Below are positions 11,610 through 32,036 of a stretch of DNA of 32,341 bases, piece after piece. The position numbers and the translations under genes are program-made. Every line of letters begins with the position of its first letter. The first letter of the stretch is position 1. Below the pieces are notes generated by a model. The model saw nothing but the letters and a program-made list of their open reading frames with translations. It had not been told where the DNA came from and ran no database searches. This stretch comes from a bacterium (lineage in GTDB: Bacteria; Calescibacteriota; Calescibacteriia; Calescibacteriales; Calescibacteriaceae). The stretch spans positions 1-32,341 of the forward strand of contig JAUQOU010000024.1 in the NCBI GenBank assembly GCA_030550715.1, read 5' to 3'.

Positions 11610-12158
11610 ATGTCACGCATAGGAAGAAAACCGATAGAAATTCCAAAAGATGTGAAAGTAGATATAAAAGATGGAGAAATTTTCGTCCAAGGTCCAAAGG
11701 GGAAACTTTCTATGAAAATCCCTCAACCTATTGAAGTTAAAACAGAGAACAACACAATTTATGTTATAAATCCGCACCCAGACGAAAGAAAAGCAAAAGC
11801 TTTACACGGAACAACACGAGCTCTCATAGCAAACATGATAAAAGGAGTCACAGAAGGTTATAGAATAGAGCTTGATATATCTGGAATAGGATACAGAGCA
11901 GATATGCAAGGAGACACACTCGTTCTGAAAGTCGGATACTCCCATCCTGTCTATTTCAAACCACCAGAAGGAGTTAAAGTTGGATTAAGAAGTCCTGTGA
12001 GAATATTTGTTGAAGGCGTAGATAAATATATGGTTGGTCAGGTTGCAGCGCAAATAAGAGATATAAAACCACCAGACCCATATAAAGGAACAGGAATAAA
12101 ATATGAAGATGAGGTCCTCAACCTCAAACCCGGAAAAGCAAAAGGTAAGAAAAAATAA
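11610..12158 (+). CDS. rplF: 50S ribosomal protein L6
   Basis: Protein of 182 aa starting MSRIGRKPIEIPKDVKV, the family's hallmark, with two L6 repeats; the second has LDISGIGYRADMQGDTLVL, and RDIKPPDPYKGTGIKYEDE near the end is the conserved 23S rRNA-binding segment. A Lys-rich tail follows. Normal length for the family. First gene of a three-gene ribosomal cluster; the spc genes that usually precede it (S8, S14, L5) are absent and a minus-strand gene lies upstream. No Shine-Dalgarno before the ATG. Confidence 0.97.
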   Translation: MSRIGRKPIEIPKDVKVDIKDGEIFVQGPKGKLSMKIPQPIEVKTENNTIYVINPHPDERKAKALHGTTRALIANMIKGVTEGYRIELDISGIGYRADMQGDTLVLKVGYSHPVYFKPPEGVKVGLRSPVRIFVEGVDKYMVGQVAAQIRDIKPPDPYKGTGIKYEDEVLNLKPGKAKGKKK

Positions 12159-12188
12159 ACTTTAAAAATTTAAAAGGAGAGAAAAAAT

Positions 12189-12566
12189 ATGCTTTATGCT
12201 ATGGTGTCTGAAAAGAAAGAAAGAGAAATAAGGAGAGAAAGAAGAATTCTCAGAGTCAGGAAGAAGGTTTTCGGAACACCGGAAAGACCGCGACTATGTG
12301 TTTTCAGGTCAAACAAACACTTCTACGCCCAAATCATAGACGACACAAAAGGATACACAATCTGTTCCGCTTCAACACTTGAACTTAAAGATAAAATAAA
12401 AAAAACTTGGTCCCAAGAAGCAGCAAAGGAAGTAGGAAAACTTATAGCTCAAAAAGCTCTTGAAAAAGGGATAAAAAAAGTTGTCTTTGACAGAAGATTT
12501 TATAAATATCACGGAAAAGTAAAGGCATGTGCGGAAGGAGCAAGAGAAGGAGGTCTTGAATTCTAA
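12189..12566 (+). CDS. rplR: 50S ribosomal protein L18
   Basis: Protein of 125 aa: [20 protein letters not shown] then [18 protein letters not shown], and the conserved end [18 protein letters not shown] followed by AREGGLEF. L18 binds 5S rRNA in the central protuberance. AAGGAG (12173-12178) precedes the ATG at 12189; an ATG at 12201 (MVSEKK) is an alternative start. Its stop overlaps the rpsE start (TAATG), implying translational coupling. Confidence 0.97.
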
Positions 12567-13159
12567 TGGGCAAGTGGGGAAAAAGGGGAAGAATGTACGC
12601 AGGAAATTCATATGTATATCTTCAAAGATACATACCAAAAGAAGATGATGAAATAGTGGAAAGAGTCCTTGAAACATCAAGAGTGACACGAGTCACAAAA
12701 GGAGGAAAAAGGTTCTCGTTCAGGGCTTTCTGCGTTGTCGGAAATATGAAAGGAGCAGTAGGATATGGAATGGGAAAAGCTCTTGAACCATCAGAAGCAA
12801 TAAGAAAAGCAGTAAATGCAGCAAAAAAGAACATGATAGTCATTCCGATTGTCAAAGGAACAATCCCACACGAGGTTGAAGGAAAGTTCGGAACTTCAAG
12901 AGTGATTTTGAGACCCGCCGCTCCCGGAACAGGTATAACCGCAGGAGGAACAGTAAAAGCAATAATGACAGTAGCCGGAATAAAAAATATACTCACAAAA
13001 TCAATAGGAGGAAACAACCCTCTAACACTTACAAAAGCAGTATTTGATGCTTTCTCTAAACTCAGAACACTCTCTCTGCAAGCAAAGCTCAGAGGTAAAA
13101 AATTAACTGAACTACTATGGGAAGAAAACAAAGCAGAAGGCATTATTGAAAGTCAATAG
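12566..13159 (+). CDS. rpsE: 30S ribosomal protein S5
   Basis: Protein of 197 aa: RVTRVTKGGKRFSFRAFCVV then GNMKGAVGYGMGKA (dsRNA-binding-like N-domain) and VILRPAAPGTGITAGGTVKA (C-domain), both diagnostic of S5. About 25-30 residues longer than the Escherichia coli protein, through extensions at both ends. Start ATG shares its A with the rplR stop. In most bacteria rpmD, rplO and secY follow; here the next gene is a glycerol-3-phosphate dehydrogenase. Confidence 0.97.
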   Translation: MGKWGKRGRMYAGNSYVYLQRYIPKEDDEIVERVLETSRVTRVTKGGKRFSFRAFCVVGNMKGAVGYGMGKALEPSEAIRKAVNAAKKNMIVIPIVKGTIPHEVEGKFGTSRVILRPAAPGTGITAGGTVKAIMTVAGIKNILTKSIGGNNPLTLTKAVFDAFSKLRTLSLQAKLRGKKLTELLWEENKAEGIIESQ

Positions 13160-13291
13160 CCAGCTCAAACCCCACGGCTTCAAAAAATTTCAAAAAACCC
13201 TATTTCAAAAGCAATCTGAAAACCTACTTATATGGCTTAAAGAATTCGTCTGACTTTTTAAAAAATTAATATTTTGTTAAATTTTTAAAAT

Positions 13292-14947
13292 ATGAGCGAG
13301 AACCATGAAAAATCAATTCCACAAAGCGAAAACATAAGCGTAGAAAATTACGATGTCGCAGTCATAGGAGGAGGTATAAACGGAGTAGGAATAGCAAGAG
13401 ACCTCTCTATAAGAGGGCTGAAAGTGATTTTATTTGAGAAAGAGGACTTCGGATGGGGGACAACTTGGGCTTCATCATGTCTGATGCACGGCGGAGCAAG
13501 ATATATCATAAACGATATCGGTGTCACATATAAATCATCAAAAGAAGCAGGTGTGGCAAAAAAAATTTCCGCACACCTTCTTTCACGAAGACCTTTCATA
13601 ATCGTCTCCCACTCAAAAACCATGATAAAACTCTTTGATATTTATATGAGCGTATATGATATGTTCTCAATAATGAGAGGAGCTATAAGACATTTCAAAA
13701 TAAATGAAGAAGAAGTTGAAAAAATAACAGGAAAAGAAGTTGTATCAAAGGGAGGCGGAGTAGTAACCGAAGAATACGCTGTAGACCCCGTGAGATTATC
13801 TGTTCTTAACTCAATATCTGCAAAAGATTTCGGAGCAAAAGTTCTAAACCACACAGAAGTCATAAAGATAAAAAAAGAAAACAACCAATACCTCGTGGTA
13901 GCTAAAAACACACTGTCAAAATCAGAAATAATTGTGAGATCAAAAATAGTCGTGAATTCAACAGGTCCTTGGGCAGATAAATTCATCCTAAATGCAACAG
14001 AAAACAACAAAAAAAAGAAAAGATTAAGACCTACAAAAGGAATACATATCGTATTTCCCGGAAAAATTCTGAACTCAGTAATAAGCTTTCAGGCAATAGA
14101 TGGAAGGTACCTTCTTTTTGTACCCCTTGAAGATAGAACTATTTTGGGGACAACAGATGACGACTTTTTCGGTGACCCTGACGAAATAGAAATTTTAAGA
14201 GATGAGGTTGAATACCTCATCCACTCAGCAGAAAAGTTTATACCCAGAATAAGGGAGTTCAGACCGTTTTCAACAAAAGTTGGTCTGAGACCAACTCCGT
14301 ATGTGTACGGAGTAAACGAAGATAAAATAACGCGCGAGTTTGAGATAGAAGATGATGATGGATTCATTTCTGTTCTTGGAGGGAAACTCGCAAGCTATCG
14401 GCTCCTTGCAGAAATAGTATCAGACCTCGTATGCAAAAAACTCGGAGTAAGCAAAAAATCAAAAACTCATCTTATCCCTCTCCCTGGCTCAGAAAACTCA
14501 GAAGGAGAAAAAGACGAAGAGATAGAAAAATTCTCAGAGAAAATAAAAGATTATCTTTCAAGAAATTTCAGAATTCCCGAAGATGTCGCACACTTTATGG
14601 CAAAAAAATACGGATGGAGGTCAAAAGAAATCCTATCGTACTATGACTCAGGAGAACTCGTATGCGAGTGTTCAAAAGTTTATGAAGGAGAAATAAAATA
14701 TACGATAGAAAAAGAAATGGCTTATACATTAGAAGATGTAGCAAGAAGAACATGGGCAGGAGATGGATTCTGCAACGGAATACTATGCGCAAAAAAAATA
14801 ATAAAAATCCTTCTTGAAAAAGAAAGAAAACCAGAAGTAGAAAAATTTATATTGAGACGGGAAAAACTCCTTGAACCCGTGAAAAAATATAACCAAAAAC
14901 TCTGGGAAGAATTTCAAAAATTCAAAAAAGAAATGCTCAAAGATTAA
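13292..14947 (+). CDS. FAD-dependent glycerol-3-phosphate dehydrogenase, GlpA-like with C-terminal Cys motif
   Basis: Protein of 551 aa oxidising sn-glycerol 3-phosphate to dihydroxyacetone phosphate and passing electrons to the membrane pool. The FAD-binding GGGINGVG is at residues 26-33, followed by the GlpD/GlpA signature WGTTWASSCLMHGGARYI. Later come FVPLEDRTILGTTDDDFFGD, KVGLRPTPYV and SVLGGKLASYR. The tail carries C458-x-C460 and C494-x4-C499 (in CECSKVYEGE and GDGFCNGILC), the layout of the BFD-like [2Fe-2S] domain of anaerobic GlpA. That suggests an anaerobic-type enzyme, though glpB and glpC are not adjacent. The alkyl-DHAP-synthase-like gene follows 56 bp downstream. No Shine-Dalgarno; TTAAAT (13277-13282) may be a -10. 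Confidence 0.9.
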   Translation: MSENHEKSIPQSENISVENYDVAVIGGGINGVGIARDLSIRGLKVILFEKEDFGWGTTWASSCLMHGGARYIINDIGVTYKSSKEAGVAKKISAHLLSRRPFIIVSHSKTMIKLFDIYMSVYDMFSIMRGAIRHFKINEEEVEKITGKEVVSKGGGVVTEEYAVDPVRLSVLNSISAKDFGAKVLNHTEVIKIKKENNQYLVVAKNTLSKSEIIVRSKIVVNSTGPWADKFILNATENNKKKKRLRPTKGIHIVFPGKILNSVISFQAIDGRYLLFVPLEDRTILGTTDDDFFGDPDEIEILRDEVEYLIHSAEKFIPRIREFRPFSTKVGLRPTPYVYGVNEDKITREFEIEDDDGFISVLGGKLASYRLLAEIVSDLVCKKLGVSKKSKTHLIPLPGSENSEGEKDEEIEKFSEKIKDYLSRNFRIPEDVAHFMAKKYGWRSKEILSYYDSGELVCECSKVYEGEIKYTIEKEMAYTLEDVARRTWAGDGFCNGILCAKKIIKILLEKERKPEVEKFILRREKLLEPVKKYNQKLWEEFQKFKKEMLKD

Positions 14948-14985
14948 AAGAGAAACAAAAATACAAAATAAAAAATAAAACAAAA

Positions 14986-14991
14986 TATAAC
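14986..14991 (+). promoter_or_regulatory. -10-like box before the alkyl-DHAP-synthase-like gene
   Basis: TATAAC (5 of 6) ends 12 nt before the ATG at 15004, the same distance as the TATAAT at 5035. A second candidate, TATCTT (14992-14997), overlaps this zone. No Shine-Dalgarno is present. Confidence 0.35.
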
Positions 14992-15003
14992 TATCTTACT
15001 CTT

Positions 15004-16590
15004 ATGGAGAAAAGGAAAGTCAAATGGAACGGATGGGGATATGAAGATGAAGAATACCCAAAAGATAAAGCCAAAAAAATAACAGAAATCTTATCTGGAT
15101 TTCTTGGCTTGAACAAAGACGATTTTTCACCATCTATAACCCTTGACAAAATAAAAGTTGAACCACCAGAGATAAATATAGAAGAAATCCGGAAAAAACT
15201 CAAAAGCTCTGTGATAACTTCTGATAAATACGAAAGAGTTCTCCACTCAAGCGGTAAAAGCTACAAAAACCTCATAAGATTGAGAAAAGGAAAAGTCAAA
15301 AAATTTCCGGAAGCAGTCATATACATAAAAGATAAGAGAGAAATTGAAACCATACTTGAGTGGTGCGAAAAAAACGAAGTCGCATGCGTTCCATACGGTG
15401 GAGGAACAAGCGTCGTCGGAGGAGTTGATGTTGAAGATATAAAAAAACCAGTGATAACCTGCGACCTCACAGAACTCAACAGAGTCATTTCAGCAGATGA
15501 AAAATCACTTACCGCAACAGTTGAAGCAGGAGTGAGAGGACCAAATCTTGAGCAACAGCTCAGAAAATTCGGAATGGCTCTGCGACACTACCCTCAATCT
15601 TTCATGCTCTCTACCCTTGGAGGATGGATCGCCTCAAGGTCAGCAGGGCATTTCTCATCAAGATACGGCAAAATAGAAGAAATGATCCAAAGCATAGAGG
15701 TAATCACTCCGAAGGGAGTTATAAGGAGTTTTGATGTTCCTGCAACCGCGTGCGGACCAGATATACCGCGCCTTTTCGCAGGGTCAGAAGGAACGCTCGG
15801 AATAATAGTTTCCGCAACTATAAAATGCCACAGGATACCCACAAAAAAATTCTCAACATCGTTCATCTTTCCAGATTTTCAATCGGCATGCGAAGCAGCA
15901 AGAATAATAATTCAGAGTGAAATAAACCCACCACTTTTGAGAATTCTTGACGAAAGAGAGTTTATGATATCTTCTCTGGTTTCCGGTGGAAACTTCAACG
16001 GTGGTTCGCTCCTCCTTTTAGGTTTTGAAGCAGATAACGAAAATGAAAAAACAATAGAAGCAGAGTTTGAAAAATCAAAAGAAATATGCCAAAAATTAGG
16101 AGGAAAAGAGGAAGGAAAAAGAAAACTTGATGACTGGAAAAATGAGTACTTTGAGCAACCTTACCTCAGAGATGTTCTGATGGATTTCTGCATCGTTGTT
16201 GATACATTAGAAACCGCAACCAACTGGTCAAACCTTATGAACCTATATGAGAAAGTAAAAACCGCAATAGAAAATGCAATATTTTCACATACATTAGGCG
16301 GTGTCTCCTGTAGAGTAACTCACGTCTATACCTCCGGTGCATCACTATACTTTTCTTTCTTTGCAAAATCAAAAAAAGATGAAGAAGAGGAATTATGGTG
16401 GGAAATCAAAAAATCAGCTTCTGATGCTATCTCAAAAGGCAAAGGAACTATATCACATCATCACGGTGTAGGAAGAGACCACAAAAAATGGGCAGAAATA
16501 GAGCTCAAAGATTCGCTCATATTACTCAAAGGAATAAAGGAGTTTTTAGACCCTCGCAAAATATTGAATCCCGGAGCAATTTTTGATTGA
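15004..16590 (+). CDS. FAD-linked oxidase, alkyldihydroxyacetonephosphate synthase-like
   Basis: Protein of 528 aa. It starts with VKWNGWGYEDEEYP, the opening typical of the alkyl-DHAP synthase (AGPS) group. It has the PCMH-type FAD-binding core: CVPYGGGTSVVGGV near residue 130, AGVRGPNLEQQL, LGGWIASRSAGHFSSRYGKI, GSEGTLGII. A H485-H486-H487 triad lies in SHHHGVGRDH, matching the His triad of AGPS, and the end FLDPRKILNPGAIFD is canonical. AGPS swaps the acyl chain of acyl-DHAP for a fatty alcohol, the committed step of ether-lipid synthesis. Bacterial relatives may instead be D-lactate/glycolate-type oxidases, but the His triad and N-terminus favour AGPS. The upstream G3P dehydrogenase makes DHAP, which supports a lipid role. 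Confidence 0.8.
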   Translation: MEKRKVKWNGWGYEDEEYPKDKAKKITEILSGFLGLNKDDFSPSITLDKIKVEPPEINIEEIRKKLKSSVITSDKYERVLHSSGKSYKNLIRLRKGKVKKFPEAVIYIKDKREIETILEWCEKNEVACVPYGGGTSVVGGVDVEDIKKPVITCDLTELNRVISADEKSLTATVEAGVRGPNLEQQLRKFGMALRHYPQSFMLSTLGGWIASRSAGHFSSRYGKIEEMIQSIEVITPKGVIRSFDVPATACGPDIPRLFAGSEGTLGIIVSATIKCHRIPTKKFSTSFIFPDFQSACEAARIIIQSEINPPLLRILDEREFMISSLVSGGNFNGGSLLLLGFEADNENEKTIEAEFEKSKEICQKLGGKEEGKRKLDDWKNEYFEQPYLRDVLMDFCIVVDTLETATNWSNLMNLYEKVKTAIENAIFSHTLGGVSCRVTHVYTSGASLYFSFFAKSKKDEEEELWWEIKKSASDAISKGKGTISHHHGVGRDHKKWAEIELKDSLILLKGIKEFLDPRKILNPGAIFD

Positions 16591-16613
16591 TAAAAGAAAT
16601 TTAAACCAAAAAT

Positions 16614-17420
16614 TTAAACCGAGTTGAGCAAGGCGAGCATACGTGACTTTATCATCTTCTCTTTCATCTCTTGAACCGCTTTTTCAAATCCCAAAAATAT
16701 AGAGCGCGAAACTATTGAGTGACCTATTGAAAGCTCTTCTATTTCAAGTATCTGAGCTATATTTGAGACGTTGTGAATGTTCAGTTCATGACCAGCCATA
16801 ACCTCTAGCCCCTTCTCAAAAGCATAGCGAGCAGATTCCCTTATTTTCCTCAACTCATCTTTATCAGAAGGGTTCCTTGAATATGCCGTGGTATTTACTT
16901 CAACAAAAGACAAACCGCATTCCAGAGCATAATCTACCATGCGATTTTCAGGGTCTATGAAAACCCCTACCCTAACTCCTTTCTCTTTAAGCGCAGAGCT
17001 AAATTTTATTACCAACTCTCTTATTTTCTTATCCGAAAGGTCCATACCCCCCTCGGTTGTGACCTCCTCAACTCTTTCTGGAACAAGAGTGACTTTATAA
17101 GGTACAACTTGTATGACAAATTCTAAAATGTCATCAAATAAACCCATCTCAACAGTAAGCGGGAGCTGAACAACTTCCTTTATCAACATAACATCTCTTT
17201 CCTTTATGTGCCGTCTATCTTTTCTGAGATGGACCGTTACTCCATCAGCTCCTCCAAGCTTTGCCAGAACGGCTGCGTGAACTGGGTCTGGTTCTTTTGA
17301 TCTTCTCGCCTCACGCAAAGATGCAACATGGTCAACATTAACAGATAACCTTATGTCAAGAGTAAATCCTCTTTTGCTTTCAAATGATTTACTTCCAGTT
17401 TTTAGATTTAGTTCTTCCAT
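16614..17420 (-). CDS. pdxJ: Pyridoxine 5'-phosphate synthase
   Basis: Protein of 268 aa condensing 1-deoxy-D-xylulose 5-phosphate with 3-amino-1-hydroxyacetone 1-phosphate in the DXP-dependent vitamin B6 pathway. Diagnostic segments are SVNVDHVASLREARR, GGADGVTVHLRKDRRHIKER, LTVEMGLFDD, VGVFIDPE, VEVNTTAYS, and VMAGHELNIHNVSN then LSIGHSIVSR. The core starts at about residue 26, so the protein carries an N-terminal extension of about 25 residues beyond the usual start. The ATG at 17420 is the only ATG ahead of the core in this frame. Convergent with the upstream plus-strand gene and divergent from the lipoprotein gene at 17571. Confidence 0.95.
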   Translation of the reverse strand: MEELNLKTGSKSFESKRGFTLDIRLSVNVDHVASLREARRSKEPDPVHAAVLAKLGGADGVTVHLRKDRRHIKERDVMLIKEVVQLPLTVEMGLFDDILEFVIQVVPYKVTLVPERVEEVTTEGGMDLSDKKIRELVIKFSSALKEKGVRVGVFIDPENRMVDYALECGLSFVEVNTTAYSRNPSDKDELRKIRESARYAFEKGLEVMAGHELNIHNVSNIAQILEIEELSIGHSIVSRSIFLGFEKAVQEMKEKMIKSRMLALLNSV

Positions 17421-17552: not shown

Positions 17553-17561
17553 GGGGAGGTG
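17553..17561 (+). promoter_or_regulatory. Strong Shine-Dalgarno that sets the start at 17571
   Basis: GGGGAGGTG lies 9 nt before the ATG at 17571. It contains an in-frame GTG (17559) that could be mistaken for the start. Confidence 0.75.
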
Positions 17562-17570
17562 AAAAAAATA

Positions 17571-19496
17571 ATGACGGGGTGGATAAAGTGGGGAAAAAAT
17601 TACAAATGGTGTAAGTATATTCTTCCTTCTATCATATTATTATTTCTTGCTTCGTGCGGCACTCAGGAAAATACTCTCAAAGGCAAACTTCCAGATAATC
17701 TCCGCGCTGTTTCTACTTACGGAGAAAAAAGTTTTGACTCACAAAACTTAAAAGTTGATTTCACCGGATGGGAAGCAGACGCACCTCAAACAATATTCAT
17801 AGTTGACCAGAACGACAGAAACTACCTTATGGCATATGTCCTTCCAGAAAAGCTCGTAAAAGAAGTGTGGGGAGAAAACGATAAAACCCTCGGACACTTT
17901 ACCTCTGGAAGAACAATAAATGTTGATGAAAGAACAACAGCATTAGCTCTCGTAATTATGTCTCCGCCTTACTTCTGGGCTTTCACACCAAGAGCAATAG
18001 TTTATTCAGCACACTTTATAGTCACTCATGAAAAATTTGAAGAACTCTCGCAAAAAATTGCCTCTATTCCTCCCGGAGAACTAACTTCTGGAAAATATCC
18101 TGAAATCTTCGCTCTTGCGTCAGAAATTGCAAGAGATGTCAGAGAAAAAATAATGCCAGCCGAAAAAACATACGAAAGAATCTTCGCAAAAGATGAAACA
18201 GATTATGTCGAAATTCCCTGCAATATCAACGACCAAGGAATAGCTAAACTTGAAGATGCTCCCGGACTGCAGGTAAAGTTCAAAGCAAAAAATATGGTGT
18301 GGTATGGAGGGGGAATTTTCAACAGTTATGACCCCGGAAAAATAAATCAAATACAGAGCTATTTCGTTCTCAAAGCACAAGATGCTAAAATTGACCTCTC
18401 AATAGATAATATCTTAACTTTGAATATAATAAATCCAGTAGTTGAGACAACCGTAACCCTTCCCTCATACGGACAGCACGCAATAAGAGTTGAAAAAGGA
18501 ATTGAGTTCAGCTTATCTATTTTTACTGACCCTATAAAGAGAGTAGGACTTGCAGCAAACTTCGGAAGATTGGTAAAGTACGCGGTAGAAATAGCTGTTC
18601 CCAATATAGCTGCTTGCATACCAGATGGGGATACCTGGGGATACGCAGTAGCATTAGCACAAGAAATTCTTGACTCAGGAACAATAAACAGCATCAGAGG
18701 TCTTCTATCAAGCTCGTGGGATGAAATTGTCAGAGTTCTTGTTTCACATTTTATTGACACAAACTCTTTCATATATAGAATTTTGAACAGAGTTGGTTTT
18801 GCAAGTTGCGCTTACTCTCCAAACTTCATCATAAATCAAATAGCAGCAATATTCAGAAACTTCCCTATTGTCAAGCTCTATGACGCTTTCACAAAATATA
18901 TACCGTTTGGGATAGAACTTTTCACAAAACCTAAAACAGGAGTGTATTATGCAGCAGAAGGTGTTCCTCTTCCCTACGACATACCTATTGTAAAGGAGTT
19001 ATATCCTCTTCCTGCATCTTCTCCCGGAACGCTGACTTTAAAATCAGTGGGACCCGAATGCACAAACTGCAGGGTGAGATTAGTATGTCCAGACAGAACA
19101 GTAATTAACCAAAATGTCTACATATCTTGCTCATCTCAGATTAACTTATATATTCCTCCGGATATATCTGGAACTTGTAGTTTTATCCTCTCAAAAGTTG
19201 AGACCTACACACAAGGAGGGTTTTTAGGTTTTGGGGGAACAACATATTCCAACGAGATAGTTTTAACTCAGTGGCAAATACAGGTAAATAGTTGTCCATC
19301 TTGTAGCACCGCAGGATTTCCGGGCAGTGTAACAGAATACTACAATAAACAAAAGGAACAGCAAGGAGGGGGATGTAGAGCTTCCTCTCCAATAAACACA
19401 TACTCAGCCATTGCAATAGCTATAATATTTGCTCTTAGAGAACTGAGGAGAAGAAAAAAAGGAGAAAAATTAATAAAGGAACTCAACAAAAATTAA
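17571..19496 (+). CDS. Large lipoprotein with a MYXO-CTERM-like C-terminal tail, function unknown
   Basis: Protein of 641 aa. An N-terminal signal (YILPSIILLFLASC) ends in a lipobox LASC with Cys at 29, so it should be lipid-anchored. The C-terminus has GGGC (Cys 602), a short hydrophobic stretch (AIAIAIIFAL) and a basic tail (RELRRRKK), the three-part layout of MYXO-CTERM-type sorting signals. Between lie a mixed alpha/beta region and, after ~500, a Cys-rich beta segment (ECTNCRVRLVCPDRT, then NSCPSCSTAG). I recognise no enzyme motif. The ATG at 17571 is chosen over the in-frame GTG at 17559, which lies within the ribosome binding site. Tandem with a second lipoprotein gene 70 bp downstream. 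Confidence 0.7.
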   Translation: MTGWIKWGKNYKWCKYILPSIILLFLASCGTQENTLKGKLPDNLRAVSTYGEKSFDSQNLKVDFTGWEADAPQTIFIVDQNDRNYLMAYVLPEKLVKEVWGENDKTLGHFTSGRTINVDERTTALALVIMSPPYFWAFTPRAIVYSAHFIVTHEKFEELSQKIASIPPGELTSGKYPEIFALASEIARDVREKIMPAEKTYERIFAKDETDYVEIPCNINDQGIAKLEDAPGLQVKFKAKNMVWYGGGIFNSYDPGKINQIQSYFVLKAQDAKIDLSIDNILTLNIINPVVETTVTLPSYGQHAIRVEKGIEFSLSIFTDPIKRVGLAANFGRLVKYAVEIAVPNIAACIPDGDTWGYAVALAQEILDSGTINSIRGLLSSSWDEIVRVLVSHFIDTNSFIYRILNRVGFASCAYSPNFIINQIAAIFRNFPIVKLYDAFTKYIPFGIELFTKPKTGVYYAAEGVPLPYDIPIVKELYPLPASSPGTLTLKSVGPECTNCRVRLVCPDRTVINQNVYISCSSQINLYIPPDISGTCSFILSKVETYTQGGFLGFGGTTYSNEIVLTQWQIQVNSCPSCSTAGFPGSVTEYYNKQKEQQGGGCRASSPINTYSAIAIAIIFALRELRRRKKGEKLIKELNKN

Positions 19497-19553
19497 GGTT
19501 ATCTGAACTGAAAGCAAAAACACAAAGAGAATAAAATCAAACACGAAAAAAAT

Positions 19554-19559
19554 TATATT
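19554..19559 (+). promoter_or_regulatory. -10-like box 7 nt before the second lipoprotein start
   Basis: TATATT (5 of 6) ends 7 nt before the ATG at 19567, which would put the transcription start at or next to the ATG. No Shine-Dalgarno and no clear -35 are seen. Confidence 0.4.
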
Positions 19560-19566
19560 TATATCT

Positions 19567-21288
19567 ATGAAATCGGTGGAGAAGCGGTTTTTTTATCATT
19601 TACAGAGATGGATTTTTTTCTTTTTCGCATTTATTTTCGGGCTCTTTCTAATTCAATGCGCAAAAGAGAAGAAAGAAGATTTCTCAACAGGGCTTGCTAA
19701 CAGGGACCCAAAAATTTCAGAAGGTATAACATATATAGAAAAAGAGAAAACTCAGGAAGCTAAAAAATTTTTCAAGGAACTCGGCAAGGAAAATCCCAAA
19801 CACTGCGGATACCTCATAGGATACCCTCTTGTATCAATACAGGAGTATCTTTCAAAAATAGCGGCAATAATAAATTTTGCAGTAAGCGTTTACGGAACAG
19901 GGGGAGGAGGGGTAGCTCCATCAGTACTCCCGAAACAGACGGAGATAAACCCAAAAGCTGGATGTGATGATGCTCTTGATAGAATGATCCGCGAATTCGC
20001 AAAATCGCTCCACAATGAGACCGAAGATGGTTTAGCACTTATAGAAAAAGCTATATCTCAAGGGTGTGAGATGGAACTTGAATATCCGCTCAGTGTATCT
20101 ATTGGGAACTCGTTCAAAATTCGGCTCATTCTCTACGGAAAATTCGGTTCAGCAGAAATGTCACTCCTCAGATACATAGGATACCTGACATTAACTATCT
20201 CATCCGCCATTCTTTCGCACGATTACTCAGTAGATACTCTAACTATACTGCAAAACATATCAAAGATAGAAGCAAGGAATATAACGAGCTTGCTCCGAAC
20301 TCTCGCATTTATTATGGTCGGATGCGATAGAACCCTCTCTTTCCACCCAGAAGATAAATCTTACCTTTCAAAAATAACATCTTATGTGGTCAAATCAATT
20401 GAAAGCGGATTTTCATTCTTGCAAGAGCTTGAACAAAGAAACGGAAAAGAAGGATATGTTCTTTACTTCAAAGATAAATCAGGTGAAGGAAAAATAGGTT
20501 ATAACCCCGATACCGTCACCATAGCAACACCATTAGATGAGATAGCAATTCAGGTAAAAGGAGAGATTCAAGCGGGAACAATCAAATTGAATATGACAAA
20601 AATAACGATTGAAGTTCCCTACATAATATCGTTTGATTTTATAAACGAAGCAAAGCAGGTAGCAGATAAAATAAAGAAAATTTTAGATGAAGGGAAAGGA
20701 GGATGTCCAGAAAACTGCATATCAATAGCAGACGCGAATTTCTTCCTCAGGGCACTCAATACAGCTAAAATTGACGACTTCGTAAGAATTGATATAGTGA
20801 AATTTATAAAAGAACCCAAACCAATCCGTGAAATTCTTCCATACTGGTTTTTTAATTCAACACTCAAAAGATGGGAATTTATGCTTGAATCAGAGGTTCA
20901 TCCAAATAGACAAGACACATCGTACTTTATCTTCAACTACGATTCACCTCACTTTAACTTCCCAGATGTAATAACATTTATGGGGAAAGAAATCAAAAAT
21001 TTCTCTATTCCACAAGATTGTGTCTTTTTAGACCAAAGCTCTCCTGACTGGATACTTATTCCTTACCTGCTCTTACAGGACCCAACACTTGGCGGAAGCA
21101 TCTATATGAGATTAAAAGGTACTTTCATTGAAAGGTGTAGCGGAAGAGAAGACCCGTTTATGACAGATGAATGGAAGCCAGCGGATGATTACATGATAAA
21201 CAAAATGATAGCAATAATAACCAAAAAAACCGGCTCAATAATAATCCCTCTCATAGATATAATATCAAAATCTGTAAAATTAGAGTGA
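19567..21288 (+). CDS. Probable lipoprotein with a TPR-like N-terminal segment, function unknown
   Basis: Protein of 573 aa. A very aromatic signal segment (WIFFFFAFIFGLFLIQC) ends in LIQC with Cys at 31; Gln before the Cys is unusual for a lipobox, so lipidation is likely but not certain. Residues ~48-75 (ISEGITYIEKEKTQEAKKFF) resemble a TPR-like helix pair. The rest is mainly helical to about 250, then mixed, with scattered Cys (e.g. GGCPENCISIADANFF). There is no recognised enzyme motif and no C-terminal sorting tail. It follows the other lipoprotein gene and may act with it in the envelope; that is inference from position only. Confidence 0.6.
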   Translation: MKSVEKRFFYHLQRWIFFFFAFIFGLFLIQCAKEKKEDFSTGLANRDPKISEGITYIEKEKTQEAKKFFKELGKENPKHCGYLIGYPLVSIQEYLSKIAAIINFAVSVYGTGGGGVAPSVLPKQTEINPKAGCDDALDRMIREFAKSLHNETEDGLALIEKAISQGCEMELEYPLSVSIGNSFKIRLILYGKFGSAEMSLLRYIGYLTLTISSAILSHDYSVDTLTILQNISKIEARNITSLLRTLAFIMVGCDRTLSFHPEDKSYLSKITSYVVKSIESGFSFLQELEQRNGKEGYVLYFKDKSGEGKIGYNPDTVTIATPLDEIAIQVKGEIQAGTIKLNMTKITIEVPYIISFDFINEAKQVADKIKKILDEGKGGCPENCISIADANFFLRALNTAKIDDFVRIDIVKFIKEPKPIREILPYWFFNSTLKRWEFMLESEVHPNRQDTSYFIFNYDSPHFNFPDVITFMGKEIKNFSIPQDCVFLDQSSPDWILIPYLLLQDPTLGGSIYMRLKGTFIERCSGREDPFMTDEWKPADDYMINKMIAIITKKTGSIIIPLIDIISKSVKLE

Positions 21289-24748: not shown

Positions 24749-27700
24749 ATGTCAACGAAGGATTTAAACCATTTAGATTTAACCTTTATAGTAAATGAAC
24801 CGGGCAAGACGCTTAAGGATAGATTTAAGCAACTCATAAAGGACTGTAAGTTCTTCGATTGCCTCGTCGCTTATTTTTATGTAAGTGGATTTTATGAAAT
24901 ATATGAGGCGTTAGAAAGTGCTGAAAGAATAAGAATTCTCATCGGCATCGGAACATCAAAACAGACATTTGATTTAATAAAAAAAGCTCAAAATGAAAAC
25001 CTATCTCATCATGAAGTAAAACAAGAAGTAAAAAATCTAATAGAAAATGAACTTGCTGATTCAGAAGATAATAAATCCGTTGAAGATGGAATAAATAAAT
25101 TTATTGAATGGATAAAAAACGGCAAATTACAAATTAGGGCTTATTCTAAAAAAAATTTACACGCAAAGTTATATATCATAACATTCAAAGAAGGCGATAG
25201 AGATAAGGGAAGGGTTATTACGGGCTCAAGCAATTTTACTCAGTCAGGTTTAGAAAATAATCTTGAATTTAATGTTGAGTTAAAGAATCGTAGCGATTAC
25301 GAATTCGCAAAGCAAAAATTTGAAGAACTATGGGAAGATTCTGTTGATGTTAGTGAAGAATATGTTCAGACAATAACTGAAAAAACTTGGCTCAATCAAA
25401 ATATAACTCCATATGAACTTTACCTCAAATTTTTATATGAGTATTTTAAAGATGAATTATCAAGGAAAGACGAGGTTTTCACAAAGTATCTTCCTGAGAA
25501 CTTCAGAAAACTAAAATATCAAGAACAGGCGGTATTGAATGCAAAAAAGATACTTGAACAGTATGGCGGAGTTTTTTTATCAGATGTTGTTGGACTTGGT
25601 AAAACCTATATCGCAGCTATGCTCGCGGGACAACTTGATGGCAGAACAATGGTTATAGCACCTCCAGCGCTTCTTAATAGAAATAACCCGGGCTCATGGC
25701 CCAATGTATTTTCCGATTTTCATATTCCGGCTGAATTTATATCTGTTGGTAAACTTGATTCCGCAAAGAGAGAAGTTGAACGCAGAGAATATAAAAATAT
25801 TATCATAGATGAAGCACACCGCTTTAGGAATGAGAGCACAATCAGTTACGAAGATATCGCTGAGATATGTCGTGGTAAAAGGGTGATTTTGGTTTCTGCC
25901 ACGCCCTATAATAATTCACCAAAAGATATACTTGCTCAGATCAAACTCTTCCAGAATGCCAGAAAAAGCACCATCCCAGGAGTTCCAGATCTTGAAAAAT
26001 TTTTTGGAGAACTTGAGAAGGAATTGAAAAAAGTTGACCGTCAGAAAGACTATAACAAGTTTCTTGAAATAACAAAAAGAAATGCGAAAGAAATCCGGGA
26101 TAAAGTTTTGAAGTATTTAATGGTCAGAAGAACAAGAAGCGAGATAGAAAAATATTTTGCAGAGGATTTAAAACGCAATAATATAAAATTTCCGGAAATT
26201 GAAGATCCAAAGCCATTTTATTATGAGCTCAACGATGAGGAAGATAAAATCTTTATGGAAACAGTTGAGCTTATAACCCAGAAATTAAAATATGCTCGTT
26301 ATATGCCGTTGCTATACCTAAAAGCGTCTATCGGACCACTTGAAGCTCAGGCACAGCGGAATATGGGTGGGTTTATGAAGGTTCTACTTGTAAAGCGTCT
26401 TGAAAGCAGTTTCTATGCTTTCAGAAAAAGCATTGATAGGTTTATCAAGTCCTACGAAATGTTCATCAAGGAATATCAAAGAGGAAATGTATATATAAGT
26501 AAAGATTACATAAACAAAATTTTTGAGCTTTTGGAAAAGGGAGATGATGAGGCAGTCCAGAGACTTATTGATGAGGGAAAGGCGGAAAAATATTCAAGTT
26601 CAGATTTTAAGCCTGATTTTGAGAAAGACCTAAAAAATGACTTTGAAATCCTAAACCAAATAAAATCAATGTGGGGGAAAATTAAAAGAGACCCAAAGAT
26701 TGAAAAGCTTATTTATGAGTTAAAAAATAACCGTATTATCAAAGATAAAAAAGTTATTATTTTTACTGAATCAAAAGAGACAGCAGAGTATTTAACTCAA
26801 AAGATAAACGAGGAGTTTGGAGAAATAGCTTTACTTTTTCACGGAAGTTCTTCTGAAAGCGTTCGTGATAAAGTCATTGAAAACTTTGATGCAAGAGCGA
26901 AAAATCAAAAAGATGATTATAGAATTCTTGTATCAACAGAGGTTCTTTCAGAAGGTGTTAATCTTCATAGGTCAAATATTGTTATCAATTATGACATTCC
27001 GTGGAATCCAACAAGGTTGATGCAAAGGGTTGGAAGAGTAAATCGTATAGATACAAAATTTGATAAAATATACACATTTAACTTTTTCCCGACGAAACGG
27101 GCGGATTCTGAAATTGAACTCACAAAAATTGCGCGCTCAAAGATAGAAGCATTTTTGACTCTACTTGGAGGCGACTCGGCAATTTTAACAGAAGGTGAGC
27201 CAGTTGCCTCACATGAACTCTTTGATAAACTCCTTTCGAAGAAAACAATTATACAAGAAGATGAAGAAGAAGAAAGCGAACTCAAGTATTTAAGAATTAT
27301 TGAAGATATTCGTGATAAAAATCCAGAACTTTTTGAAAAAATAAAGCGTCTTCCGAAAAAGGCACGCTCTTCAAAAAGATTTTCTGAAAATTTAAAGGAT
27401 TTTGCCTCTCCTAATTCTTTGCTTACATTTTTTAGAAAAGGCAAACTTATGAAATTCTTTTTATCAGATAAAAGTAGAACAGTTGAACTTGATTTTCTTA
27501 CAGCAGTAAAGATTCTTGAGACCTCACCGAATGAGAAAAGAGCACAACTCCCTCTTGAAAATTACTATGAACTCCTTGGTAAGAATAAGAATGCCTTTTT
27601 CTATGCCACTACTCATGAAGTAATAGAAACACGAAAGCGAAGCGGTAGAAGTATCTATGAAGAACTTTTTAAAATTTTGAAAGCAACACAAAATAGTAAG

Positions 27701-27961
27701 ACAAAATTAACAGAAGAGCAGAAAGAGTATCTCAGAATTCTGATAAATCGTCTTGAAGAAGGTTCTATACCTAAAAAAACAGTCCAGAAAACACTTAAGG
27801 AACTGAAAGCACTCAAAGAAGACATACAAGACCCTTCAAAAGTAATAAGCATTTGCCAGAGAGAAATATCATCAACCTTTCTCAAAAGCCATTATGCTCA
27901 AACTTCTGTATCAACGGAAGATAAAGGAGAGGTTATACTATCTTTATATTTAGATGGTTAG
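24749..27961 (+). CDS. PLD-domain SNF2-type helicase (putative restriction/defence effector)
   Basis: Protein of 1070 aa. The N-terminal domain (~1-205) is a phospholipase D-like fold with one HKD-type motif: H138-A-K140-LY, then [20 protein letters not shown]. Such single-motif PLD domains can act as nucleases when dimeric, as in BfiI. The rest is a superfamily 2 helicase of SNF2 type: Walker A DVVGLGKT near 279, DEAH at 354-357 ([13 protein letters not shown]), VSATPYNN near 383, and in the second lobe [26 protein letters not shown], then [16 protein letters not shown] near 760. It should translocate on DNA and perhaps cut it. It is followed by a toxin-antitoxin pair and a large adenine methyltransferase, so a restriction or anti-phage role is likely. 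No Shine-Dalgarno is seen at the ATG. Confidence 0.85.
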
Positions 27962-28259
27962 GAGCATGAGAAACATTGAAGAGATAAAAGAAAAATTAAA
28001 GGAATTGAAGCCAATCTTCAAGGAAAAATACAAAGTTAGCGAGATAGGAATCTTTGGCTCTTATGTAAGAGGAATGCAGAAAAAAAGGAGCGATTTAGAT
28101 ATCCTCATAGAGTTTGAAGAGGTTACTGACCTTTGGACCTATATTGAGCTACAGGATTTTTTATCAAAAAAATTAAAAGTTAAAGTTGATCTTGTAATGA
28201 AATCTGTCCTTAAGCCATATATAGGGAAAGTTATCTTGCAAAAGGTGGTTTATATATGA
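27954..28259 (+). CDS. MntA-like nucleotidyltransferase antitoxin
   Basis: Protein of 101 aa with [10 protein letters not shown] (G35, S36) and [10 protein letters not shown] (D47, D49), the active-site motif of MNT antitoxins. MntA proteins AMPylate a tyrosine of the HepT toxin and so silence it. The first ATG overlaps the helicase stop by 8 nt; a second in-frame ATG at 27966 (MRNIEE) follows AGGAG but with only one base of spacing, so the start is uncertain. The stop overlaps the hepT-like start (ATGA), so the two are coupled. Confidence 0.85.
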
Positions 28260-28576
28260 GAGAAATAAGAGATTATCTGATGGATATAAAAACTGAATGT
28301 GAATACTTATTGAGCAAAAGTGAAAATTTAAAATATGAAGATTTTATAATGAATGAGGAATTGAAAAGAGCTTTTGTAAGAAGTCTTGAAATAATTGGAG
28401 AGGCTGCTAAACACATCCCTAAAGAGATAAGAAGAAGATATCATCAGATTAGATGGAAAAGTGTTGTAGGAATGCGAAATATTCTTATTCATGAATATTT
28501 TGGAGTTGATTACAGGGTCTTGTGGAAATTGATTAAAGAGCGAATACCTGATTTTATGAAATCATCAAAAAGATGA
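28256..28576 (+). CDS. HepT-like HEPN RNase toxin (DUF86)
   Basis: Protein of 106 aa, all helical, with the HEPN catalytic motif RX4HXY: R74-NILI-H79-E-Y81 in [13 protein letters not shown] and H make up the RNase active site and the Tyr is the residue that MntA-type partners modify. [17 protein letters not shown] is also typical of DUF86. All key residues are present, so the toxin should be functional. It is placed between helicase and methyltransferase, all in one direction with short or overlapping junctions, so the four genes probably share a transcript. Confidence 0.9.
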
Positions 28577-28595
28577 TTGAGGAGATAAATAACAA

Positions 28596-31500
28596 ATGAA
28601 TAGAGAACAGGCAAAAAAGCTTATAATTGAGACCTTTGAGAATCCCTTTGATAAAGGAAAGTTTATTAATTTTATTAATAATCTACTTAAAACTTATGAT
28701 AGAAGCAAAGCTCTTGAACCAAGAAGTGGAATTCAAGGAGTAACCGAAAAATATCTAAGGTTTATTAGTTCTTGGGAAAGGATCGGTCGGTATGAAGACA
28801 AAGATGGTAAAAAGATAGATATTTTAGTGGTGAAATTAGAAAAAGAAACCTCTTTATATCGCGCCCGTTCAGCTCAGAGGAATTTCGTTGCTGAATATTT
28901 AAGGGGAAAGCTTGGAACAGGAACTACAAAAGATGCTGCACTTGTCGCCTTCATCTCACCAGCTTCTGAAGATTGGAGATTCTCCCTTGTCAAACTAGAT
29001 TATCGTTTTGAAGAAACACCTTCTGGCAAAGTCAAAGTCAAAGAAGAATTCACACCTGCTAAAAGATGGTCGTTTCTGGTTGGTAAAAATGAAAAGAGTC
29101 ATACCGCCCAGAGTAGATTTTTGCCTATTCTTGAAAATGACGACTGGAAACCTACCCTTAAAGATTTAGAAAAAGCATTTGATGTTGAAATCGTTACAAA
29201 AGAGTTCTTTGAAAAATACAGAGACCTCTTCATAAGGACAAAACTTGAACTTGATAAGATCGTTCAAAGCAACCAAGAAGTCAAGCAGGAGTTTGAAAGT
29301 AAAAACATCAACACAGTTGATTTTGCTAAAAAACTTCTCGGTCAAATTGTGTTTTTGTATTTCCTGCAAAAGAAAGGTTGGTTCGGTGTTGAGAGAGATA
29401 AACCTTGGGGAACAGGCCCAAAAGATTTCATCAGAAAATTGTTTAATAAAGAATACGGTGAATATGAAAACTTTTATAATGATATTCTTGAACCACTATT
29501 TTATGAAGCACTTAGAACAGACAGATCCGCTGATGACCACTACTACAGCAGGTTTAATTGTAAAATTCCGTTTTTAAATGGTGGACTTTTTGACCCTATA
29601 AACAATTTTGATTGGGTAAATATTGATATTCTTTTGCCAAATGAACTTTTCTCAAATAAAAACAGAACTAAGGAAGGTGATATTGGAGATGGCATTCTTG
29701 ATGTGTTTGATAGATACAACTTTACAGTAAATGAAGAAGAGCCCCTTGAAAAAGAAGTCGCCCTTGACCCAGAATTACTTGGAAAAATCTATGAAAAGCT
29801 AAATGCTATAAGACCAGATAACTTTGACGAATATGTAAAAATTTTGAAGTCGGGCAGAAAGGGAGAAGAAATAAAGTTCAATAAAGAATATGGTGTTTAT
29901 TACACACCAAGAGAAATAGTCCATTATATGTGTCAAGAAAGTTTGATAAACTATCTTGAAACAGAACTTGCGGGGAAGGTCAGAAGAGAAGACATTGAAG
30001 AATTTGTAAGATATGCTGATTTATTTTTAGAACACGAAAAAATAGCTCTTGAAAAGAGAGAAAAAATTGAAAGAGGAGAGCAGAAAGACACTAAATATAA
30101 ACATAAAATACCCGAAAGTATCCTTCAAAACGCAGAGCTTATAGACAAACTTCTTGCTGATATAAAAGTTTGCGACCCTGCAGTTGGTTCAGGGGCTTTT
30201 CTTGTTGGCATAATGCATGAAATTGTAAAGCTAAGGCAATTGCTTTCGGTTTATCTGGGTAGAGAAATTAACACCTATGACCTAAAACACCACTGTATTG
30301 AAAATTCCCTTTATGGAGTTGATATAGACCCTGGAGCTGTTGAGGTATGTAGGCTGAGGTTTTGGCTTTCTTTAGTGGTGGATGAGGAAGATTTTTATAA
30401 CATAAAACCACTTCCTAACCTTGATTATAAAGTCGTTCAAGGTAATTCGCTTTTGGGACTACCTGAAGAAATTTTGCCGAACGATGGAATAAGTAGAGAA
30501 ATTGAAGCAATGAAAAAAGTACTTTTTTCAATAACTTCTCCCTCAGAAAAAATGAAGGTCAGAGAAAAAATTAATATATTGTTTGCTAAACAGATAAATT
30601 TTGTTAGACAATTTGATCCATCTATAGGAGACATAAAATTTGATTTCAGAATACATTTTTCAGAAGTATTTCATGAAAAAAATGGCTTTGATATTGTGAT
30701 AGCTAATCCGCCGTATGTAAGGCAAGAAAGAATTAAACACCTAAAACCTAAGCTTAAAAAGGCATACAAAGATTTCTTTGTTTCCACGGCTGATCTTTAT
30801 ACATACTTTTATAAAAAATCTTACGATATTCTGCGAAACAATGGAGTGCTTTGCTTTATTTCAAGCAATAAATGGATGAGAGCAAAGTATGGAGAGAAAT
30901 TGAGAAGGTTTTTAAAGGAGAAAACAAAAATTATTGAAATTGTAGATTTTTCTGGCTACCCTGTTTTTGAGCAAACTGTGGACACTAATATAATCATCCT
31001 TTTGAAATCCAGACCAGAAAAAGGACATTTGGTAAGCTTTGTTAATGTAGGAAGTGATGTTGATGATGAGATAGATTACATCAGAAACAATAAGAGAACC
31101 ATATTACAAGAAAAACTCTCTGACAGTGCCTGGACGCTTGCAGAAGACAGGGTTTTGGCAATAAAAGAAAAGATAGAAAAAATAGGAACACCTTTAAAGG
31201 AATGGGATGTGAAAATTTATCGTGGAGTTTTAACAGGTTTTAATGAAGCGTTTATTATTGATAGTAAAAAGAGAGAAGAGATTTTAAATAATTGTAAAAC
31301 AGAGGAAGAAAGAAAGAGAACAGAAGAAATAATCAAGCCAGTTTTAAGAGGTAGAGATATAGAAAAGTGGAGGTATAAGTGGGCGGGGTTGTGGGTAATA
31401 AAAATTGAAGCTGGATGGACAAATAAAAATCGTGGGAAAGAAAAACCAGAAGAGTTTTTCAAAAATACATATCCTGCAATTTATGACCATTTAATATCAT

Positions 31501-32036
31501 TTAAAAATTATAAAGGAAAAGGTAAAGGACTAATCAATCGTGATGACCAAGGCGATTATTGGTGGGAATTAAGGCACTGTGATTATTATCCTGAATTTGA
31601 AAAGGAAAAAATTGTGTGGCAGGAAATAGTTGAAGAACCAAGTTTTGCCTATGATAATACAGGAATTTACTGCGAAGCTACAGCATTTATAATGACAGGA
31701 AAAAATCTAAAATACTTGCTTGGACTGTTAAACTCAAAACCTGTTTCATTTTTCTTTAAAAAATTTTACGCTGGTGGCGGTTTAGGAGAGGAAGGTTACA
31801 GATATAAAAAAGCATTCTTAGAACGCCTCCCCATCCCCAAAATTCCCGAATCAGAGCAAAAACCAATCATTGACCTTGTGGATAAAATCCTCTCCTTAGC
31901 TCAATCTCCCGATTACAAAACAGATCCACAAAAGCAAGCCAGAGTAAAAGAACTTGAAAAACAACTTGACCAGCTTGTTTATAAACTTTATAATTTAACC
32001 GAAGAAGAAATTAATATTATAGAAGAAATAAGATGA
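28596..32036 (+). CDS. Eco57I-type N6-adenine DNA methyltransferase (type IIG/PglX-like)
   Basis: Protein of 1146 aa. Methylase motif I DPAVGSGAFLVGIMHEIV is near residue 527 and motif IV NPPYVRQERI near 704, in the order of gamma-class adenine methylases of the Eco57I family. The long N-terminal part (~1-210, including IDILVVKLEKETSLYRARSA and the WRFSLVKLDY segment) is shared by large type IIG-like enzymes; I cannot see a certain PD-(D/E)xK nuclease in it. The C-terminal part (~850-1110, PVLRGRDIEKW, YWWELRHCDYY, FYAGGGLGEEGYRYKKAFLERLPIP) is a TaqI-like target-recognition region. The end LDQLVYKLYNLTEEEI is typical. GAGGAGAT lies upstream of the ATG. It probably marks host DNA for the PLD-helicase partner. 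Confidence 0.88.
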   Translation: MNREQAKKLIIETFENPFDKGKFINFINNLLKTYDRSKALEPRSGIQGVTEKYLRFISSWERIGRYEDKDGKKIDILVVKLEKETSLYRARSAQRNFVAEYLRGKLGTGTTKDAALVAFISPASEDWRFSLVKLDYRFEETPSGKVKVKEEFTPAKRWSFLVGKNEKSHTAQSRFLPILENDDWKPTLKDLEKAFDVEIVTKEFFEKYRDLFIRTKLELDKIVQSNQEVKQEFESKNINTVDFAKKLLGQIVFLYFLQKKGWFGVERDKPWGTGPKDFIRKLFNKEYGEYENFYNDILEPLFYEALRTDRSADDHYYSRFNCKIPFLNGGLFDPINNFDWVNIDILLPNELFSNKNRTKEGDIGDGILDVFDRYNFTVNEEEPLEKEVALDPELLGKIYEKLNAIRPDNFDEYVKILKSGRKGEEIKFNKEYGVYYTPREIVHYMCQESLINYLETELAGKVRREDIEEFVRYADLFLEHEKIALEKREKIERGEQKDTKYKHKIPESILQNAELIDKLLADIKVCDPAVGSGAFLVGIMHEIVKLRQLLSVYLGREINTYDLKHHCIENSLYGVDIDPGAVEVCRLRFWLSLVVDEEDFYNIKPLPNLDYKVVQGNSLLGLPEEILPNDGISREIEAMKKVLFSITSPSEKMKVREKINILFAKQINFVRQFDPSIGDIKFDFRIHFSEVFHEKNGFDIVIANPPYVRQERIKHLKPKLKKAYKDFFVSTADLYTYFYKKSYDILRNNGVLCFISSNKWMRAKYGEKLRRFLKEKTKIIEIVDFSGYPVFEQTVDTNIIILLKSRPEKGHLVSFVNVGSDVDDEIDYIRNNKRTILQEKLSDSAWTLAEDRVLAIKEKIEKIGTPLKEWDVKIYRGVLTGFNEAFIIDSKKREEILNNCKTEEERKRTEEIIKPVLRGRDIEKWRYKWAGLWVIKIEAGWTNKNRGKEKPEEFFKNTYPAIYDHLISFKNYKGKGKGLINRDDQGDYWWELRHCDYYPEFEKEKIVWQEIVEEPSFAYDNTGIYCEATAFIMTGKNLKYLLGLLNSKPVSFFFKKFYAGGGLGEEGYRYKKAFLERLPIPKIPESEQKPIIDLVDKILSLAQSPDYKTDPQKQARVKELEKQLDQLVYKLYNLTEEEINIIEEIR

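Follow-up and report, generated by a model that had tools for sequence, protein, structure and literature searches.

A 32,341-nt contig from a bacterium of the Calescibacteriaceae (JAUQOU010000024.1, one contig of the 1.95-Mb assembly GCA_030550715.1, completeness 87%), hereafter the window, carries two neighboring genes that point to an enzymatic step of glycerol ether lipid metabolism. ORF1 encodes a putative glycerol-3-phosphate (G3P) dehydrogenase and ORF2 a flavoenzyme of the alkyl-dihydroxyacetone-phosphate synthase (AGPS) family. With a probability of about 0.58 we read the pair as a step at the level of dihydroxyacetone phosphate (DHAP) in which glycerol ether lipids are made or broken by AGPS chemistry. 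The family membership of ORF2, its intact active site, the presence of both genes throughout the lineage and the recurrent linkage of such genes in other bacteria were observed directly. Both reading frames are intact and lie on the same strand with a spacing of 56 nt. A preliminary description of this DNA had named the gene pair; both genes are real and the outer coordinates, 13292–16590, are exact. The family of the window was represented in our search by four further genomes, two of them congeneric, and the next relatives share only the domain. The resulting lineage set comprises five genomes (G000–G004, completeness 82–87%), all of which encode orthologues of both proteins. This confirms the genes as real and rules out a chance pair of frames.

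Judged by its sequence, ORF2 is a true AGPS-family flavoenzyme. Its closest solved relatives are the AGPS of Dictyostelium (E 1.2e-84) and of guinea pig (E 3.9e-71), and D-lactate dehydrogenase matched with E 1.8e-24. The WNGWG start, the FAD core and the HHH triad claimed earlier for the protein are all present. ORF2 residues H195, T204, R313, R389, T439, Y449 and H485–H487 correspond to H300, T309, R419, R515, T568, Y578 and H615–H617 of guinea pig AGPS, while guinea pig S527 is replaced by T. Mutagenesis of the Dictyostelium enzyme, as described in an excerpt of PMC3509576, found R352, R447 and Y508 to matter for catalysis, with Y508 as the proposed base. By arithmetic, using a chain-numbering offset of 3, these are guinea pig R419, R515 and Y578 and thus R313, R389 and Y449 of ORF2. 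All eight glycolate/lactate-oxidase rows in the alignment carry E at the position of R419, lack Y at 578 and show GEH in place of HHH. An AlphaFold2 model of ORF2 reached a predicted local distance difference test (pLDDT) score of 89.4 from a 22-sequence alignment, and a Foldseek search with this model returned AGPS entries exclusively at ranks 1–37 (query-normalised template-modelling score 0.77–0.92). VIA-align superposed the model on AGPS with Z 43.6 and a root-mean-square deviation (rmsd) of 2.0 over 514 residues (span 3–527), compared to Z 36.1 and rmsd 2.8 over 444 residues (span 55–527) for D-lactate dehydrogenase. The N-terminal part of ORF2 is therefore unmatched by lactate dehydrogenase, whose match starts at residue 55, but matched by AGPS. 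In comparison to the eukaryotic enzymes (PDB 4bby, 2uuu) ORF2 is alike in full-length fold, N-terminal WNGWG, FAD domain and the R419/R515/Y578/HHH set, at 28–31% identity over the structural alignments. With GlcD and D-lactate dehydrogenase (TIGR00387, 8jdb) it has the FAD fold in common, yet the GlcD NCBIfam model scored 138.1 bits against a cut-off of 567.9, and the residues at R419, Y578 and HHH differ. AGPS-type chemistry of ORF2 on a DHAP backbone is likely on these grounds.

The phylogeny of ORF2 was determined with a first tree of 77 rows, from which 26 near-duplicates among 80 named loci (described below) had been left out, and with a more careful tree of 50 rows, for which 27 of the 77 were dropped as duplicates or long branches, including L002, L008, L009, L011, L013 and L014. 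Eukaryotic AGPS are represented in these trees by two sequences only, and MXAN_1676 of Myxococcus is absent. In the 50-row tree the five lineage proteins form one clade (100/100) within a 42-row clade that includes both eukaryotic AGPS (100/99) and is separated from the six oxidase rows at 100/100. Sister to the lineage proteins is a group of 21 bacterial rows, here called clade II, and the joint clade is supported at 100/100. Constraint tests with the approximately unbiased (AU) criterion rejected a grouping of the lineage with eukaryotic AGPS (p-AU 0.0006) and with GlcD/D-lactate dehydrogenase oxidases (p-AU 0.003). A grouping with the dehydrogenase-linked clades that excludes clade II was likewise rejected (p-AU 6e-6). 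Since all of these groupings were rejected, ORF2 is, as far as the trees tell, a bacterial branch within the AGPS family rather than a recent import from eukaryotes. A recent transfer from eukaryotes was considered and dismissed, and an identity as glycolate/lactate oxidase is ruled out by model scores, residues and tree. The AGPS reading of the preliminary description has thus held, with ORF2 outside the lactate/glycolate oxidases and its catalytic residues kept. Its description of the route as eukaryote-like is too strong given the rejected sister relation.

ORF1 is, by sequence, a GlpA-type FAD-dependent G3P dehydrogenase in the wider sense. It combines the Pfam domains DAO, DAO_C and Fer2_BFD, the last of which was also found in the orthologue of G001. 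GlpA is its top NCBIfam model, with 283.1 bits against a cut-off of 552.8 and thus below the curated threshold. In a 47-row dehydrogenase tree, E. coli GlpA and the five lineage orthologues of ORF1 share an 11-row clade with support 99; 18 loci were omitted from this tree as near-duplicates, and the mis-trimmed rows L120 and L127 form an artefactual pair. ORF1 keeps all four positions aligned with R54, R317, R332 and K354 of E. coli GlpD, which we take to be the residues of the G3P site.

Substrate, direction and the coupling of ORF1 to ORF2 are what we infer, and the chemistry may be pictured as follows. Y449 of ORF2 would take the C1 proton from a 1-substituted DHAP, the C1 carbon would add to flavin N5, and the oxygen substituent at C1 would leave and another enter, with no net redox change. 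ORF1 would oxidise the C2 hydroxyl of G3P, either free or 1-substituted, to the ketone that AGPS chemistry requires.

The pairing seen in the window recurs in other bacteria. Scanning genome contigs with an alignment of eight sequences, we confirmed 588 relatives and retained the best 80, each with up to 10 kb of flanking sequence. Neighboring genes were assigned by targeted phmmer, as antisense frames in GC-rich loci merge under all-against-all clustering. A G3P dehydrogenase lies beside the AGPS-like gene at 41 of these 80 best loci, a YegS-type lipid kinase at 37, and both at 35; the set is rich in Actinomycetota, so that 41/80 is no unbiased frequency. All but one of the 42 dehydrogenase matches are no more than 1.2 kb away from the AGPS frame, and among the 63 loci flanked by 2.5 kb or more on each side, 37 are linked. 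Gene order varies: mycobacteria and their relatives show a divergent glpD followed by AGPS and kinase, Parvibaculum (L082) has glpD, kinase and AGPS in a row, and three of the Chloroflexi loci show AGPS-glpD. In Hydrogenedentota (L079, 1259–3847) an 863-aa fusion of dehydrogenase and kinase (DAO, DAO_C, DAGK_cat and YegS_C) adjoins the AGPS-like gene. The genes are close in two further genomes (G028 and G041); in another (G048) the matched stretches lie about 2 kb apart, with the AGPS-like match near a contig end. On the 50-row AGPS tree 14 of the 39 scored rows are linked, requiring at least six state changes. In the 47-row tree the linked dehydrogenases are spread over more than one clade, and different subfamilies are paired with AGPS-like genes in Actinomycetota, Chloroflexota, Alphaproteobacteria and Hydrogenedentota; the linkage therefore looks functional. 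That non-orthologous dehydrogenases are paired with AGPS-like genes time and again is difficult to account for unless the two share a function. Compared to loci with glpD, AGPS-like gene and YegS-type kinase such as those of Mycobacteroides (L115), Parvibaculum and Hydrogenedentota, the window has the dehydrogenase-AGPS-like pair and the conserved catalytic residues in common. Our searches of the available literature turned up no description of the dehydrogenase-kinase-AGPS unit; among the papers listed, those on AGPS dealt mostly with peroxisomes and disease. It is this linkage that is new, bacterial AGPS homologues themselves being already known.

Several observations weigh against a role of the window pair in ether lipid metabolism. 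ORF1 and ORF2 are directly adjacent in only two of the five lineage genomes (G000 and G002), whose proteins are 92–94% identical. In G004 a distance of 22 kb separates the two genes; those of G001 and G003 lie on separate contigs, with the AGPS gene of G001 near a contig end. Adjacency restricted in this way would also be expected of an accidental neighborhood, in which two unrelated housekeeping flavoenzymes happen to follow L6, L18 and S5 in one genus. We consider such an accident unlikely in view of the same pairing, with different dehydrogenase subfamilies, in the four groups named above. Neither a lipid kinase nor a fatty-alcohol-forming reductase (FAR) gene was found beside the window pair. 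The residue pattern of ORF1 is that of ordinary G3P dehydrogenases, so that its substrate may be nothing more than free G3P.

The sister group belongs to the same side of the balance. A linked dehydrogenase was seen in only one examined row of clade II (L158), and the group includes likely degraders of other ethers. The plasmid relatives (67 records) include proteins of Sphingopyxis macrogoltabida and Xanthobacter dioxanivorans, which are 82% identical to each other and both belong to clade II. On the Xanthobacter plasmid (L195) the AGPS-like gene is placed between aldehyde dehydrogenases and a glutathione S-transferase (GST) gene plus glcDEF, a context different from that of ORF2 although clade II is its closest sister by tree. 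Together with the fully supported sister relation, this would fit an ORF2 that acts on some other ether or on a 2-hydroxy/alkoxy acid and has no connection with lipids. We judge this improbable: ORF2 retains R389 and an SLYF motif, resembling the CLYF and CIYF of AGPS, whereas many members of clade II have lost R515 or carry APYF, and ORF2 adjoins a G3P dehydrogenase in G000 and G002. The context of clade II thus supports ether chemistry for the family, yet weakens a lipid assignment by homology alone.

The clade II loci also allow a suggestion for their own substrates. According to an excerpt of PMC8508750, the dioxane-induced genes of that Xanthobacter strain include a glcFED cluster and two aldehyde dehydrogenases under near-consecutive numbers (GE05986-88, GE05991, GE05994). 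Judged by gene order, this cluster would be the one holding the AGPS-like gene. By analogy, AGPS-like enzymes of clade II may cleave ethers of the alkoxyacetate type, 2-hydroxyethoxyacetate being a candidate. An AGPS-like gene adjoining a GST-like gene was observed in Xanthobacter (L195:5276-13442), Sphingopyxis macrogoltabida (L194:6968-9316) and Afipia (L138:8179-13876), and aldehyde dehydrogenase and GlcD-type genes lie near it in Xanthobacter and, by eye, in Afipia. Two of these three hosts are named as degraders of dioxane or polyethylene glycol.

We searched the five lineage genomes for further enzymes of an ether lipid pathway. Each encodes three or four PF01553 acyltransferases, among them in all five a PlsB/GPAT-class enzyme of about 537 aa. 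Its NCBIfam matches are all to PlsB, AGPAT and related acyltransferases, with PlsB highest at 85.5 against 618.5 bits, and its best PDB relatives are two GPATs, apart from weaker matches to CutA. Because PlsY (PF02660) was found in none of the five genomes, the enzyme is the best candidate for the sn-1 acyltransferase, with G3P or DHAP as substrate. The preliminary description had pointed to a DHAP acyltransferase as a partner: a candidate is present throughout the lineage, but specificity for G3P is equally possible. It had also pointed to a fatty-alcohol-forming reductase, and here the outcome was negative. No reductase of the PF07993 type was found in the five genomes, other kinds of acyl reductase not having been searched; the top score was 68 bits, and the eight best frames look by eye like sugar epimerases or other short-chain dehydrogenases/reductases (SDRs). 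The same search applied to control genomes scored 223 and 174 bits for Marinobacter, as much as 219 for Mycobacteroides, 160 for the Hydrogenedentota genome and 56 for Parvibaculum. For the acyl/alkyl-DHAP reductase, the third partner pointed to, SDRs are too numerous to assign a single one. A search with FAR_C (PF03015) was uninformative, as it gave no match even in the control genomes. DUF2229 (PF09989), an activase-type protein domain, marks PlsA of the anaerobic plasmalogen or glycerol ester reductase route. It was found in none of the five lineage genomes but in 4 of 14 control genomes, and a PlsA-type ether lipid route was discarded for the lineage. DAGK_cat proteins are encoded elsewhere in the lineage genomes, with 4–5 matches each. 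Supply of DHAP by ORF1 is an unconvincing reason for the pairing, given that DHAP belongs to central metabolism and that all five genomes encode GpsA. The recurrent linkage is better accounted for by a dehydrogenase that works on the same lipid backbone.

In classical synthesis, the PlsB-class enzyme would acylate DHAP, ORF2 would put a fatty alcohol in place of the acyl group, and a reductase would yield 1-alkyl-G3P. The intact AGPS active site of ORF2 and the distribution of acyltransferases are consistent with this route, as is G003, where the PlsB-class gene and the orthologue of ORF1 lie about 3.5 kb apart. A bacterial precedent is MXAN_1676 of Myxococcus xanthus, which an excerpt of PMC9131029 describes as 42% identical to human AGPS and encoded in an operon with a FAR-GNPAT fusion; its loss reduced ether lipids only slightly, and it serves their synthesis to a minor degree. 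The window and the MXAN_1676-1674 operon are alike in a bacterial AGPS homologue, for which the excerpt proposes ether lipid synthesis on the Myxococcus side. They differ in that Myxococcus has the fusion and an epimerase-like SDR, whereas the window has a G3P dehydrogenase, and no FAR partner of the eukaryotic kind was found. Synthesis moreover has no need of G3P oxidation, and with the reductase search negative we regard it as possible but rather unlikely.

Alternatively the pair may serve breakdown or salvage without oxygen: a kinase would form 1-alkyl-G3P from alkylglycerol, the dehydrogenase would convert it to alkyl-DHAP, and the AGPS-like enzyme would cleave this to fatty alcohol plus DHAP or acyl-DHAP. 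The frequency of the kinase among the best 80 loci, the kinase-dehydrogenase fusion of Hydrogenedentota and the row of three genes in Parvibaculum, where PF07993 scores peak so low, argue for this direction, and sister clade II holds proteins of polyethylene glycol and dioxane degraders. At kinase-bearing loci breakdown would be favored, because synthesis offers no evident task for a kinase and an FAD dehydrogenase; a phosphate added by the kinase and then a C2 ketone on the 1-substituted G3P would give exactly the substrate of AGPS, and ether lipids would be dismantled. Against it, the window pair has no adjoining kinase, ORF1 is GlpA-type with an ordinary pocket, and the cleaving direction of an AGPS-like enzyme is hypothetical. 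In addition Rv2252 of M. tuberculosis, the kinase of such a locus, is described as a diacylglycerol kinase of phosphatidylinositol mannoside synthesis. We accordingly propose breakdown for the window pair only tentatively, ranking it slightly ahead of synthesis because no PF07993-kind reductase was found and because a lipid kinase joins the pair in other bacteria. It is a more doubtful proposal that the window pair represents a pared-down version of a widespread unit of three enzymes, dehydrogenase, YegS-type kinase and AGPS-like enzyme, which dismantles ether lipids without oxygen.

Table 1. Positions of the two genes and their domains and motif in the window
Feature	Position	Strand	Basis
ORF1, GlpA-type FAD-dependent G3P dehydrogenase (predicted) with C-terminal BFD [2Fe-2S] domain, 551 aa	13292..14947	+	Pfam, NCBIfam, tree
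Fer2_BFD [2Fe-2S] domain of ORF1, residues 456-507	14657..14812	+	Pfam PF04324, E 7.6e-10
ORF2, AGPS-family (alkyl-DHAP synthase-like) flavoenzyme, 528 aa	15004..16590	+	Pfam, solved relatives, residues, tree, fold
KWNGWG N-terminal motif of ORF2, residues 7-12	15022..15039	+	Sequence; aligned to both AGPS structures
FAD_binding_4 domain of ORF2, residues 102-241	15307..15726	+	Pfam PF01565, E 5.3e-33
FAD-oxidase_C substrate domain of ORF2, residues 282-525 (holds R313, R389, Y449, H485-H487)	15847..16578	+	Pfam, alignment

The genes for ribosomal proteins L6, L18 and S5 lie upstream of ORF1, and pdxJ follows ORF2 on the opposite strand. A scan of positions 12900–16800 for promoters and terminators showed no terminator on the plus strand between S5, ORF1 and ORF2 and gave nothing decisive. 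At 11610–13292 the ribosomal genes lead directly to the GlpA-type gene, a place at which one might expect secY and further ribosomal genes. In G001 (L060:2076-7250) a frame that looks SecY-like by eye precedes the GlpA-type gene by about 2 kb. Further downstream in the window, two large adjoining proteins of 645 and 573 aa (17559–21288) are without a Pfam match; the protein that corresponds to the first of them in G002 begins like a lipoprotein. The region 24749–32036 is likely a defence island. It contains a PLD/HKD-SNF2 helicase (PADLOC C3a139, 174 bits), an MNT nucleotidyltransferase (PDC-S09) with a HepT-like partner, and a type IIG restriction enzyme-methyltransferase (1196 bits).

The making and breaking of glycerol ether bonds in bacteria is part of the question of the lipid divide. 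Homologues of AGPS are common in bacteria, as our 588 confirmed relatives illustrate, and the sources, as far as excerpted, gave experimental support for Myxococcus only. A count in Black Sea metagenomes, where AGPS homologues were screened as markers of ether lipids, found them across many phyla (excerpt of PMC11868695), and another paper notes a fatty acyl-CoA reductase in the neighborhood of an AGPS gene (excerpt of PMC11948995). In view of the loci described here, an AGPS match in a metagenome need not mean ether lipid synthesis. The enzyme AGMO needs oxygen. In excerpts of PMC7911779 and PMC9192799 this tetrahydrobiopterin-dependent enzyme is said to be the only one to break the 1-O-alkyl bond. 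The breakdown direction, if true, would be new. The linkage together with the one fusion provides a concrete three-enzyme hypothesis that is testable in Parvibaculum, and its recurrence in unrelated bacteria hints at a route, so far uncharacterised, by which bacteria would make or break ether lipids.

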